A stretch of 20,112 bases of DNA from Pirellulaceae bacterium (lineage in GTDB: Bacteria; Planctomycetota; Planctomycetia; Pirellulales; Pirellulaceae). The first letter of the stretch is position 1; each line of letters starts with the position of its first letter. Shown piece after piece: positions 12,935-16,586 of this stretch. The stretch covers positions 1 to 20,112 of the forward strand of contig JABDKS010001012.1 in the NCBI GenBank assembly GCA_013002105.1, read 5' to 3'. The notes below the pieces were generated by a model. The model did not search any database. It was not told the DNA's origin and saw nothing but the letters and a program-made list of their open reading frames with translations. A program made the translations under genes and the position numbers.

Positions 12935-13219
12935 AATGAAACATGGCATCGGATCGTTGGTCACGTCGGCACGGCAAATCATACCCACCTGCGTGTTTCA
13001 CGGCGGGATGCTATCGCGTGAGAGCCCGTTTTTGAACGATCGATCGCGGAATTGTCCAAAGATCCCGTAATGCTTCGTAAATCCCCGCTTGATACGCGTG
13101 AATCCGCCTTGTGTCCGCCAGCATTGGATTGGTAGTTACCCAAGAAGTGCCTTGTCGTGAATCCCTCACCGCTGCGCACTTTACGAACTTGGTCCAGCGC
13201 TCCGGCAACCCTTTCGAAC

Positions 13220-14686
13220 ATGATTGATCGCTCTTACACATCGTCGCCGCACGAAAATCGAAGCTATCGGGTATCCCGACTGCTGGGATCACGATTGGCG
13301 ATATTGTTGTTGGCTTGCCTCAGCTGGGCGCTGGCATCGTCGCCCACGGCGGCTCAATTTGGCGGTGGTGGTTTTGGCGGCGGCGGTGGCGGCGGCGCGG
13401 GGCCGAACATGCCAGGGCCCGACACCAAACCAAAGTTTCGCGACCACATTCACGCTCAAGATGGCATCGCGATGCGGCGTGAGAAAGGCGACGCGGTTGT
13501 GTTGTCCGTGCAAATCAGTGGCAACAAAAACATCAGCACGCACGCGATTACGCAGCAATTGCAAACTCGTAAGGGGCGGTTCTACGAGTACGAAACGGTC
13601 CTCGGTGACGTCCGTCGACTCAATGACATGGGCTCATTCGATCACGTCACCTTTCGAACCAAAGAGTATCCAAAACAAAACGGTGTCGCGGTCGCGTTCG
13701 TGGTGCACGAACGGGCGATGATCAAACAGGTCAACTTTCACGGCAACCACGGACTAAACGATCGTGAACTGCGCGGCCGCGCAGGGCTGAATCCAAACGA
13801 TCCTCTGAGTGAGTTCACGATCGAGTCGGCACGTCGAAGAATGGTCGACTACTACCACGAAGAGGGGTTCAACCAAGCCACCATCACACTGGCCGGTGGC
13901 AAAGAAATTCAGCCGGGAACCGTGGTGTTTCGGATCAATGAAGGTCCCAAAGAACGGATTTGGGACATCAACGTCGAAGGCAACACGATCCTGACCGAAG
14001 CCCGGCTGAAAAAGATTATCAAGAGTCGAGGTCCCGCAGTCGGAGTGCTACGGCACTTGGGAAACACCGCCGACCTGAGCCGCATCGATGCCGATGTCGA
14101 TGTCTTGGCGTCGACTTATCACAACCTCGGATACCTGACGGCGACCGTGGGACGACGAATCCAGTACGACGAATCGGGCAAATGGATGACCGTCACCTTT
14201 GTCGTCAACGAAGGCCCCCGATTCAAAATCAACAGTATCCAGATCGAGGGAAACAAATTCGTCACCGAGCAATCACTACGTCAACGCTTGGAGTTGAAAT
14301 CAGGAGACACGTTCGATGGTACGCAGATGCGTAAGGACGTCGGAGAATTGGTTTATGGCTACGGCGAACTGGGGTTCATCTACGCCGAAGTCAATCCGCA
14401 GACCGTGATGCGTGACGAAAACAACGTGGTCGATCTGATTTACAAGATTGAGGAAGGCGATCGCTGGAAGATCGGCGAAATCCGCGTCAACATCGAAGGC
14501 GAGCCTCACTTGATGCGTGAGTCGACGATGTTGAACTTGGTCGATCTGCGCGAAGGCGATTTTATTGATCGACGTGCGCTGGAAGTCGGCCGACGTCGAT
14601 TGCAAGGTTCGAATCTGTTGGAGGTCAATCCACAAATTGCGAACCCGCCGGACATTATCGTTGAACCGGTTGATGAGGGTCCGTAG
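13220..14686 (+). CDS. POTRA-only BamA-like periplasmic protein (five POTRA domains, no barrel)
   Basis: A 488-residue exported protein. A signal peptide ends near residue 45 (LAILLLACLSWALASSPTAA), followed by a Gly-rich run at about 47-60. Five POTRA domains follow at about 93-167, 168-243, 245-333, 334-413 and 415-488. Each has the beta-strand opening (VQISGNKNIS, VNFHGNHGLN, INVEGNTILT, IQIEGNKFVT, IRVNIEG) and a late strand ending EGP or EGD. In ordinary BamA, POTRA 5 leads straight into the barrel. Here the reading frame stops at TAG 14684, and the barrel is in the next gene in another frame. It probably docks with that barrel for outer-membrane protein assembly. ATG 13220 is chosen for the signal peptide; GTG 13157 is an in-frame alternative. 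Confidence 0.9.
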   Translation: MIDRSYTSSPHENRSYRVSRLLGSRLAILLLACLSWALASSPTAAQFGGGGFGGGGGGGAGPNMPGPDTKPKFRDHIHAQDGIAMRREKGDAVVLSVQISGNKNISTHAITQQLQTRKGRFYEYETVLGDVRRLNDMGSFDHVTFRTKEYPKQNGVAVAFVVHERAMIKQVNFHGNHGLNDRELRGRAGLNPNDPLSEFTIESARRRMVDYYHEEGFNQATITLAGGKEIQPGTVVFRINEGPKERIWDINVEGNTILTEARLKKIIKSRGPAVGVLRHLGNTADLSRIDADVDVLASTYHNLGYLTATVGRRIQYDESGKWMTVTFVVNEGPRFKINSIQIEGNKFVTEQSLRQRLELKSGDTFDGTQMRKDVGELVYGYGELGFIYAEVNPQTVMRDENNVVDLIYKIEEGDRWKIGEIRVNIEGEPHLMRESTMLNLVDLREGDFIDRRALEVGRRRLQGSNLLEVNPQIANPPDIIVEPVDEGP

Positions 14687-14744
14687 ACCTATCGAGTATC
14701 GCATGGACTTTCCCGCTTACGACTTTTCGACCAATACCGACCGA

Positions 14745-16586
14745 ATGACAAATCGCAACCGCACCGCATCGAACCGCGAAACGCACCGAATAGAGAAATC
14801 TAGCGGACGATTCTTCGTCGCGACGCTGGCGTGTGTCGGTTGTATGACGGCGCTGGTCGGCTGCGCGCAAATTTCGACACCGCCATCGCTGGGTGATTGG
14901 ATGCGGGGCCCACAGTACGCCAATGCCCCCGATGATTCGTTGCTCTATCCGGCACCGACTCAGGCGTCGGTATCCGCAACATTGGAATCGTCCGCCGTCC
15001 ATTTAGATGGTTCGGTTCCCGCTGATACGGGCAGCGATTTCCCCAGCTTCGAGAGTTCGTTGATCGGTACCAATGCCGTGATGGACACGTCCGGCCGGTA
15101 TGTTGCCCGACAATATCCCCAGAACAGCCCGCCACAAAGTAATTACAGCGTCCAAGGCGGATTGCAAGGTTCGGTCGCGCCTCCGTCCCAGTTTCAGTAC
15201 ACTCCGTCGCAAGGTCCACCGCTACCACCGGGTACGCCAATCGTTTCACCACCCGCTCCGGTACCCAATCAACCCAACAATTACCAGCAGCCACAGCAAT
15301 ATCAGTCGTATCCGCCGCCACAACAACAGCGTTACTCCAGTCAGCAGCAGGCGATGAACCCGTACGCGGGCCAGCAAGGTGGCGTGCAATACACACCCAA
15401 CATGACGCCTTTCTCGCCCAACGCGATTGACGCACTTGGACCACCCGATGGTGGCAACGGGACCGCTTATCCGCCCCAGGGATACGAGCCGCTGTACACG
15501 CCGACGCTGCGCGAAGCTGATTTGATTATCAATGGGTTTCCGGCACGCACCGGGCGAATCATGTTTGGTGGTGCGGTGAACAGTGACGCCGGCGTGACCG
15601 GACAAGTCACGATCGACGAACGAAATTTTGACATTCGACGTTGGCCTCGATCGTTCCAGCAACTTTTTGCAGGGCAAGCGTTCCGCGGTGCCGGCGAGAC
15701 GTTCCGTGTCGAAGCCGCCCCGGGCAGCGATTTTGACCGATACACGATCCAATGGGCGACTCCGAACCTGTTCAATTATCTACCGTTCAGTTTCTCAGTC
15801 AGCGGATTTTTGTTTGATCGTCGATTCAACGATTGGGACGAGCAACGAAAAGGTGGCCGTGTCAGCCTTGGCTACCGAATCACGCCCGATTTGTCGCTCA
15901 GCGTCGGTGTCAGCGGTCAGAACGTCAAAGTCAAGAACCCTCGTAACCTGCTGTCACCCAAGTTGAATGATGTTCTGGGAAACAACGAACTTTATACCGG
16001 CCAGGTTTCGCTGAAACACGACACACGAAACAGTCCGATTCAGGCAAGTCGCGGTCATTACTTTGAATTCAGCTTCGAAGAAGCCTTTGGCGATTTTGAC
16101 TACGCCCGTTTCGAGATGGAATTTCGCCAGTACTGGTTGTTGGCCGAGCGGGTGGATGGCTCGGGAAAACAAACTCTGTCTTATTCGACGCAACTTGGTT
16201 TCAGCGGTGACGAAACACCGATCTTCGAGAACTTTTTTGCCGGCGGTTACGCAACGATCCGTGGTTTTGATTTCCGTGGTGCCAGCCCGGTCGTCAATGG
16301 GATCGAAACGGGCGGCCGATTTCAGTGGCTCAACAGTGTCGAGTACATGTTTCCGATCACCGCCGATGACGCATTCCGAGGTGTCGCGTTTGTGGACTTC
16401 GGGACAGTCGAAGAAGACATTGAAATCAATTCGGACAATTTTCGCGTCGCGCCGGGTGTTGGTTTCCGAGTTGCCATCCCCGCCCTGGGCCCTGCCCCAC
16501 TGGCGTTTGACTTTGCATTCCCCGTTGCCAAAGCCGATACCGACGACGAGCGATTGTTCAGTTTTTACATGAGCCTGATTCGCTAG
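14745..16586 (+). CDS. Omp85/BamA-type beta-barrel with lipoprotein signal and Pro/Gln-rich linker
   Basis: A 613-residue predicted outer-membrane protein. The hydrophobic segment FFVATLACVGCMTALVGC ends in a lipobox with Cys40, then AQ. Residues about 45-250 are low complexity, with Pro, Gln, Tyr and Ser dominating at 125-215. From about 255 the sequence matches the BamA barrel: TGRIMFGGAVNSDAGVTGQ, DERNFDIRRWP, KHDTRNSPIQASRGHYFE, and the loop-6 signature IRGF (505-508, Arg506) in GGYATIRGFDFRGASP. The last strand is FSFYMSLIR, ending in Arg rather than an aromatic residue. It carries no POTRA domains; these are in the gene before it, whose stop lies 58 bp upstream. Starts at 14673 or 14703 are also possible. 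Confidence 0.9.
   Translation: MTNRNRTASNRETHRIEKSSGRFFVATLACVGCMTALVGCAQISTPPSLGDWMRGPQYANAPDDSLLYPAPTQASVSATLESSAVHLDGSVPADTGSDFPSFESSLIGTNAVMDTSGRYVARQYPQNSPPQSNYSVQGGLQGSVAPPSQFQYTPSQGPPLPPGTPIVSPPAPVPNQPNNYQQPQQYQSYPPPQQQRYSSQQQAMNPYAGQQGGVQYTPNMTPFSPNAIDALGPPDGGNGTAYPPQGYEPLYTPTLREADLIINGFPARTGRIMFGGAVNSDAGVTGQVTIDERNFDIRRWPRSFQQLFAGQAFRGAGETFRVEAAPGSDFDRYTIQWATPNLFNYLPFSFSVSGFLFDRRFNDWDEQRKGGRVSLGYRITPDLSLSVGVSGQNVKVKNPRNLLSPKLNDVLGNNELYTGQVSLKHDTRNSPIQASRGHYFEFSFEEAFGDFDYARFEMEFRQYWLLAERVDGSGKQTLSYSTQLGFSGDETPIFENFFAGGYATIRGFDFRGASPVVNGIETGGRFQWLNSVEYMFPITADDAFRGVAFVDFGTVEEDIEINSDNFRVAPGVGFRVAIPALGPAPLAFDFAFPVAKADTDDERLFSFYMSLIR

Follow-up and report, generated by a model that had tools for sequence, protein, structure and literature searches.

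The POTRA domains and the Omp85 barrel of BamA, the machine for assembling outer-membrane proteins and generally treated as a one-chain protein, are encoded by two adjacent genes in a stretch of DNA from a Pirellulaceae bacterium (contig JABDKS010001012.1 of assembly GCA_013002105.1, positions 1 to 20,112; the whole 20,112 nucleotides are called the window below). The first gene encodes a signal peptide and the POTRA domains except for the last strand of POTRA5, and the second encodes a chain with its own signal, a long linker, the position of that missing strand and the barrel. We consider it probable, at roughly 70%, that this is a BamA divided by gene fission into two chains, in which the barrel chain, usually lipid-anchored, supplies the strand that completes the last POTRA domain in trans. 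Such a BamA would very probably have to be put together from both chains within the cell envelope.

The two genes and their products

The POTRA gene (13,220–14,686, + strand) encodes 488 residues from the ATG at 13,220, comprising a signal peptide with a hydrophobic core, a glycine-rich stretch, POTRA1–4 and POTRA5 minus its last strand. In a profile search its open reading frame (ORF; 13,157–14,686) was matched by the POTRA profile PF07244 in five stretches (E = 9.4e-56) and gave no barrel match. The best-scoring homologue of the chain shows 74% identity across 95%.

The barrel gene (14,745–16,586, + strand) likely starts at the ATG at 14,745, where the Stieleria marina homologue P0004 also begins in the alignment, and from there encodes 613 residues. 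Its lipoprotein-type signal has a hydrophobic segment closed by an LVGC lipobox (14,853–14,864), identified by regular expression and by its place in the aligned column. A low-complexity linker follows (14,865–15,515; 17% proline, 12% glutamine), about 217 residues long from the lipobox cysteine to the POTRA5 β3 position and predicted to be disordered, with a per-residue confidence (pLDDT) mostly below 50 in AlphaFold2 (AF2). The β3 position itself (ADLIINGFPARTG; 15,516–15,554), before which about 257 residues of the chain stand, was placed by MAFFT alignment with relatives including the one-piece protein P0251 and is joined directly to strand 1 of an Omp85 barrel (15,555–16,583) carrying the VNSDAG and IRGF motifs. 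The ORF (14,565–16,586) matches the barrel profile PF01103 at E = 4.5e-46, and the AF2 model of the chain (mean pLDDT 62) has 16 barrel strands. A Foldseek search with this model gave a BAM complex as best match (E = 1.5e-15) and BAM complexes for all of the first eight, with TamA among the matches. The database protein on this contig, P0001, has only 501 residues, so its database start lies downstream of the signal; its homologues are called BamA/OMP85 family, TamA precursor or hypothetical.

Taken together, the two halves fill complementary columns of the BamA equivalog model TIGR03303, with the POTRA frame covering columns 2–370 of 741 (205.7 bits) and the barrel ORF columns 396–738 (136.3 bits), and neither chain reaches the equivalog cut-off of 297.15 bits. 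The layout expected of BamA, with several POTRA domains ahead of an Omp85 barrel, is thus found when both chains are summed and not on one polypeptide, while the 16-strand barrel of BamA fold is present according to both AF2 and Foldseek.

A lipobox was recognised by regular expression in 57 of 84 split barrel genes, and the aligned lipobox column holds cysteine in 43 of 57 close sequences; the remaining barrel genes have signal peptides of ordinary look. A lipid anchor on the barrel chain would accordingly be the commonest state among these genes but not a universal one. For the window the motif points to lipidation of the barrel chain, and the two signal sequences suggest that both chains are exported. 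The same regular expression also matches POTRA chains in 15 of 84 rows (L011 counted twice), for example in Mariniblastus, although several of these matches, including the window's own LLAC, are probably due to chance. The POTRA genes of L011, L122, L132 and L137 have a lipobox-like signal, and there the POTRA chain may be lipid-anchored too.

The position of the break

Alignment places the cut inside POTRA5, in the β2–β3 hairpin, and not between POTRA5 and the barrel. Whereas the window's POTRA4 matches PF07244 over positions 2–79, its POTRA5 matches only positions 5–65 of 79 (E = 0.0019), below the curated cut-off. In our own profile, built from linker-free planctomycete BamAs and used to place the chain ends, the window's POTRA chain ends at column 406. 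Across 13 split loci listed the POTRA chains end at columns 398–408 in ten and 418–421 in three (L113, L146 and L163), and the barrel chains of the same loci begin at columns 414–430.

P0251, a one-piece BamA of 1010 residues from Thermopirellula, provides a structural frame for these columns. In its AF2 model (mean pLDDT 73.8), POTRA5 consists of β1 (368–378), α1 (386–391), α2 (403–415) and β2 (430–433), and a disordered linker (448–643, pLDDT below 50) sits where the domain still lacks its third strand. A strand at 651–661 (block mean pLDDT 91) follows the linker directly ahead of barrel strand 1, with barrel residue 665 aligning to residue 423 of E. coli BamA; its secondary-structure state (DSSP) and its order suggest that it pairs with the other POTRA5 strands. 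By BLAST, the window's POTRA chain aligns to P0251 up to residue 435, just beyond β2. The segment PPDIIVEP (14,645–14,668, + strand) is aligned to β2 and is followed by five codons and the stop, so that a POTRA chain of the window type carries no β3-like strand. On the other side of the break, MAFFT aligns the window's ADLIINGFPARTG with the P0251 strand 651–661, with ADLTIRAEEAQTG of L085 and with DLDIFVQEARTG of L113. Conservation of the barrel chain starts at this segment, in which P253, R256, A258, D259, L260, G264, P266, A267, R268, T269 and G270 are invariant or at least 90% conserved over 57 sequences. The barrel chain therefore very probably carries β3 of POTRA5 and, with the cut in the β2–β3 hairpin, retains the strand by which POTRA5 is connected to barrel strand 1.

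These results bear on a preliminary description of the window, which had named a POTRA-only gene followed by a barrel gene in another frame, with VNSDAG, IRGF, a lipobox and a linker of about 200 residues. The profile matches confirm both halves, all three motifs are in the sequence, and the linker is close to the length proposed. Its picture of two separately exported chains stands as far as the two signals go, export itself being expected from those signals. The description had also placed the POTRA stop exactly where the barrel should begin and had left the barrel gene with no POTRA part, both of which need amending, since the POTRA5 match is truncated and the place of the final POTRA5 strand falls within the barrel gene.

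Conservation among relatives

When genomes were scanned with the barrel protein, 11 loci were recovered, from Planctomycetes bacterium K23_9, Rhodopirellula, Roseiconus, Rubripirellula, Aporhodopirellula, Mariniblastus and one Planctomycetota metagenome-assembled genome. K23_9, which is Stieleria marina by its protein names and belongs to the Pirellulaceae, has a complete chromosome (CP036526). The POTRA gene is separate and just ahead of the barrel gene in 10 of the 10 named loci that reach upstream, a count that leaves aside L009, a fragment without the upstream part. From K23_9's family 70 genomes were drawn and 56 loci fetched; one of the other 14 genomes was K23_9 itself, and the remaining 13 had no match, partial pieces, contig edges or pieces on different contigs. 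BamA is split in 56 of 56 fetched loci. Named and family loci that reach both genes thus have separate, adjacent halves in 66 of 66 cases, and all 83 split loci have the barrel gene downstream on the same strand. One genome, G390, has two separate split BamA loci, L146 and L147.

In the window the two genes lie in different frames and their open frames overlap, as might be seen if bamA had been broken by a sequencing error or a mutation, or if its halves were joined by programmed frameshifting. A sequencing error is argued against by the same pair being intact in all 66 related loci, including one on a complete chromosome. Among 84 barrel genes the frame relation to the POTRA gene is 0 in 16, 1 in 33 and 2 in 35, which makes a conserved frameshift unlikely; programmed frameshifting was dropped as a candidate because the frame relations vary. 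Moreover, a signal sequence opens the barrel gene, and even in the 14 genomes of the family draw with both halves in one frame the DNA shows stops between them. We therefore regard an artefact, pseudogene or frameshift as extremely improbable, in line with the preliminary description, which had seen no simple frameshift in a pair of genes with a signal between the halves. That description had also proposed asking whether planctomycetes conserve the two-gene arrangement, which the relatives' loci bear out, and whether a one-piece BamA accompanies it, for which the relatives were searched as follows.

No one-piece BamA was found in the 10 named genomes by PF01103 and POTRA searches. PF01103 gave one barrel in each, except for two in Mariniblastus and a weak extra match in R. 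baltica BR-MGV, and the POTRA matches listed, 40 in all and four per genome, were all in POTRA-only frames of 514–606 residues. Nor did TIGR03303 match across both halves in one chain in any of the 70 family genomes. A single full-length barrel (frames of 438–707 residues) is present in 62 of these 70 genomes, four have a partial one, four have none and no genome has two; most of the relatives searched thus have a single full-length barrel per genome. Six of the 62 show a weak second barrel match. The extra weak family matches were scanned as samples, with L185, L186, L188–L190, L192 and L193 (the R. baltica BR-MGV weak match L023) outside the scan. The one weak second match scanned, L191, proved by profile scan to be a ShlB/TpsB-type protein. 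L184 (779–3,184, − strand) and L187 (897–3,407, − strand), in two family genomes, are frames of about 800 residues that match POTRA but not the barrel. L185, L186, L188 and L189 resemble these two by length only.

In the Mariniblastus-like locus L011 (6,797–10,076) one POTRA gene is followed by two tandem barrel genes, both full barrel matches, and the fragment L009 (1–3,001), from which the upstream part is absent, holds the same two tandem barrels. Such loci would fit a view in which the POTRA chain is an arm common to several barrels and fission was selected for barrel exchange. The tandem barrels were seen, however, in L011 and L009 only, against the single full-length barrel of 62 of 70 family genomes, and we consider this modular use of the POTRA chain quite improbable.

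One-chain relatives and the origin of the split

Many other planctomycetes have an undivided BamA, in which a long insert often occupies the point of the cut. Across the phylum TIGR03303 was matched in 289 of 294 genomes, 235 of them above the cut-off, and the best matches listed are each one continuous chain; the number of one-piece genes is at most 235, because the matches sum neighbours across stops (as in G001). Draws at the level of the order and the class gave 44 fetched loci, 28 of them one-piece (12 of 24 and 16 of 20). In these 28 loci between 14 residues (nearly insert-free) and 396 residues stand between the matched POTRA and barrel parts, with a median of 187. The linkers of the split barrels have a median of 167 residues after the signal (83 loci) and resemble the one-piece inserts in composition.

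We also surveyed a short motif, RGQ(S/Y)P, in the one-piece linkers and in the split chains of the window, L001–L011 and L084–L183. A regular expression for RGQ was matched in 23 of the 28 linkers of one-piece proteins and, among 83 split loci, in 47 POTRA tails and 39 barrel linkers, at least one match (L002) not being the RGQ(S/Y)P motif.

A FastTree phylogeny built on 136 loci unites 73 split loci, the window among them, in a single clade (support 0.952), and one-piece long-linker relatives stand around it. Ten further split loci fall among these relatives. Seven split rows form a poorly supported group (0.566) apart from the main clade, and appear as two groups in IQ-TREE. Five changes of state, at least three of them forced by starred branches, were needed in a quick IQ-TREE run restricted to 54 rows chosen from the 136. 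This suggests further fissions among long-linker relatives, and the simplest account is that ancestors with long linkers were split repeatedly. The trees are compatible both with repeated fission and with fission plus re-fusion. The seven linkers inspected of the 28 one-piece ones show no clear signal remnant. Two of these seven, however, those of L143 and L148, each contain three cysteines, and their hydrophobic peaks (1.73 and 1.92) are as strong as some of the signals in split genes (1.5–3.31), so that re-fusion may have occurred. Fission by tandem duplication and reciprocal truncation was dropped as a candidate. It had taken the β3-like strand of some POTRA tails for a duplicated β3, but similar strands, by eye, follow RGQSP in one-piece linkers too.

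A model for a two-chain BamA

In the model that we propose, a split bamA would express from one gene a POTRA chain whose signal is type I-like, and from the next an outer-membrane barrel chain with its own signal, usually of the lipoprotein type, and a long disordered linker. The barrel chain would be exported, lipid-anchored and inserted, and would present its β3 strand to the POTRA chain, so that strand complementation makes POTRA5 whole. This would hold the POTRA arm non-covalently under the barrel, where it would work as it does in one-chain BamA. Completion in trans is proposed because the barrel chain keeps the mechanically important link between β3 and strand 1, the break lying in the preceding hairpin; both binding in trans and insertase function of the two chains are what we infer from this arrangement.

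A number of observations weigh against this reading. In the POTRA tails, of which 80 of 83 were scored (L128, L134 and L138 were missed by the TG pattern and dropped), a β3-like strand was found in 7 of 80 at p ≤ 0.01, where about 0.8 would be expected, and in 14 of 80 at p ≤ 0.05, where about 4 would be expected. The seven are L086, L088, L092, L093, L099, L103 and L108, with strands such as LDLDIYVQPAR after RGQSP. The β3 segment has low confidence and forms no strand in the AF2 model of the barrel alone, and the structure predictions cover single chains. The window, L001 and L163 match the linker-free model only from column 430, past β3, and a BLAST alignment of the window's barrel with P0251 has a gap opposite the segment; since the window's β3 has drifted, its assignment rests on the MAFFT alignment with intermediates. 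A lipobox was not recognised by regular expression in 27 of 84 barrel genes, G343, G346 and G327 have their pieces on different contigs, outside the loci examined, and the search for a one-piece BamA covered the relatives and not the window's own genome.

Because some other Pirellulaceae POTRA chains hold a β3-like strand of their own, completion in trans need not be universal. In such chains POTRA5 might already be whole, in which case the strand of the barrel might supplement it or compete with it. The tail strand may be an old linker element, since similar strands occur in one-piece linkers. Where it is present POTRA5 could do without the barrel, which would suit an arrangement in which the two chains act apart, the barrel alone as an insertase and the POTRA chain as a free periplasmic chaperone or adaptor. 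A functional precedent is Sam50, cited in the relevant section of Heinz and Lithgow (PMC4104836) as able to work without its POTRA; the same section describes the POTRA-less noNterm Omp85s. Against separate action, the genes are adjacent and co-oriented in all 83 split loci, and the barrel chain conserves a segment at the POTRA5 β3 position for which a free barrel has no obvious need. We consider separate action unlikely, and prefer a two-chain BamA joined through POTRA5. For the more specific account, in which a lipoprotein barrel donates the third strand and clips on the POTRA arm, and long-linker ancestors were cut in this way more than once, we put the odds slightly better than even.

Relation to known Omp85 proteins and significance

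Compared with one-chain BamA (TIGR03303, E. coli BamA), the pair is alike in its five POTRA positions, its 16-strand Omp85 barrel and IRGF motif, and in being the only full-length barrel in most relatives searched. It differs in having two genes and two signals, a cut between β2 and β3 of POTRA5, a long linker and, usually, a lipobox on the barrel chain. The long-linker one-piece BamAs of other Planctomycetia (Thermogutta, Thermopirellula) have an insert at the same place in POTRA5, similarly rich in proline and, as surveyed above, commonly carrying RGQ, but on a continuous chain with no clear internal signal in the seven linkers inspected. Omp85 Lipo/TamL of Bacteroidetes and Chlorobi shares an N-terminal lipid anchor on an Omp85 barrel protein (here judged by motif), yet has three POTRA domains on the anchor's own chain (relevant section of PMC4104836), whereas here none is whole on the barrel chain. 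The noNterm proteins are also barrels without whole POTRA domains; in that section they are defined by an absent N-terminal extension, while here there are a signal, a linker, POTRA5 β3 and an adjoining POTRA gene.

The same section of Heinz and Lithgow (2014) describes POTRA-less and lipid-anchored Omp85 subfamilies and no split BamA. In a table in Speth (2012) two R. baltica strains have one BamA accession each, and the word 'split' is absent from that text. We found no split BamA described in the open-licence PMC papers searched, mostly as listings (including PMC3422733, PMC8567305, PMC4827864, PMC8871954, PMC13067283 and PMC4104836). Annotation is affected, in that the two halves go under separate names in public records (BamA/OMP85 family, BamA precursor or TamA precursor).

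Models of BamA gating make use of the tie between POTRA5 and barrel strand 1, and a passage of a 2026 review has the end of strand 1 carrying POTRA5 along with it. The cut described here leaves β3 joined to strand 1 and falls in the preceding hairpin. The Pirellulaceae arrangement thus offers a natural test of whether POTRA and barrel must share one chain, and a natural system for studying the role of the POTRA–barrel connection, the building of BAM from parts and the way in which a fused essential protein splits. If our reading is true, fragment complementation would be built into an essential machine.

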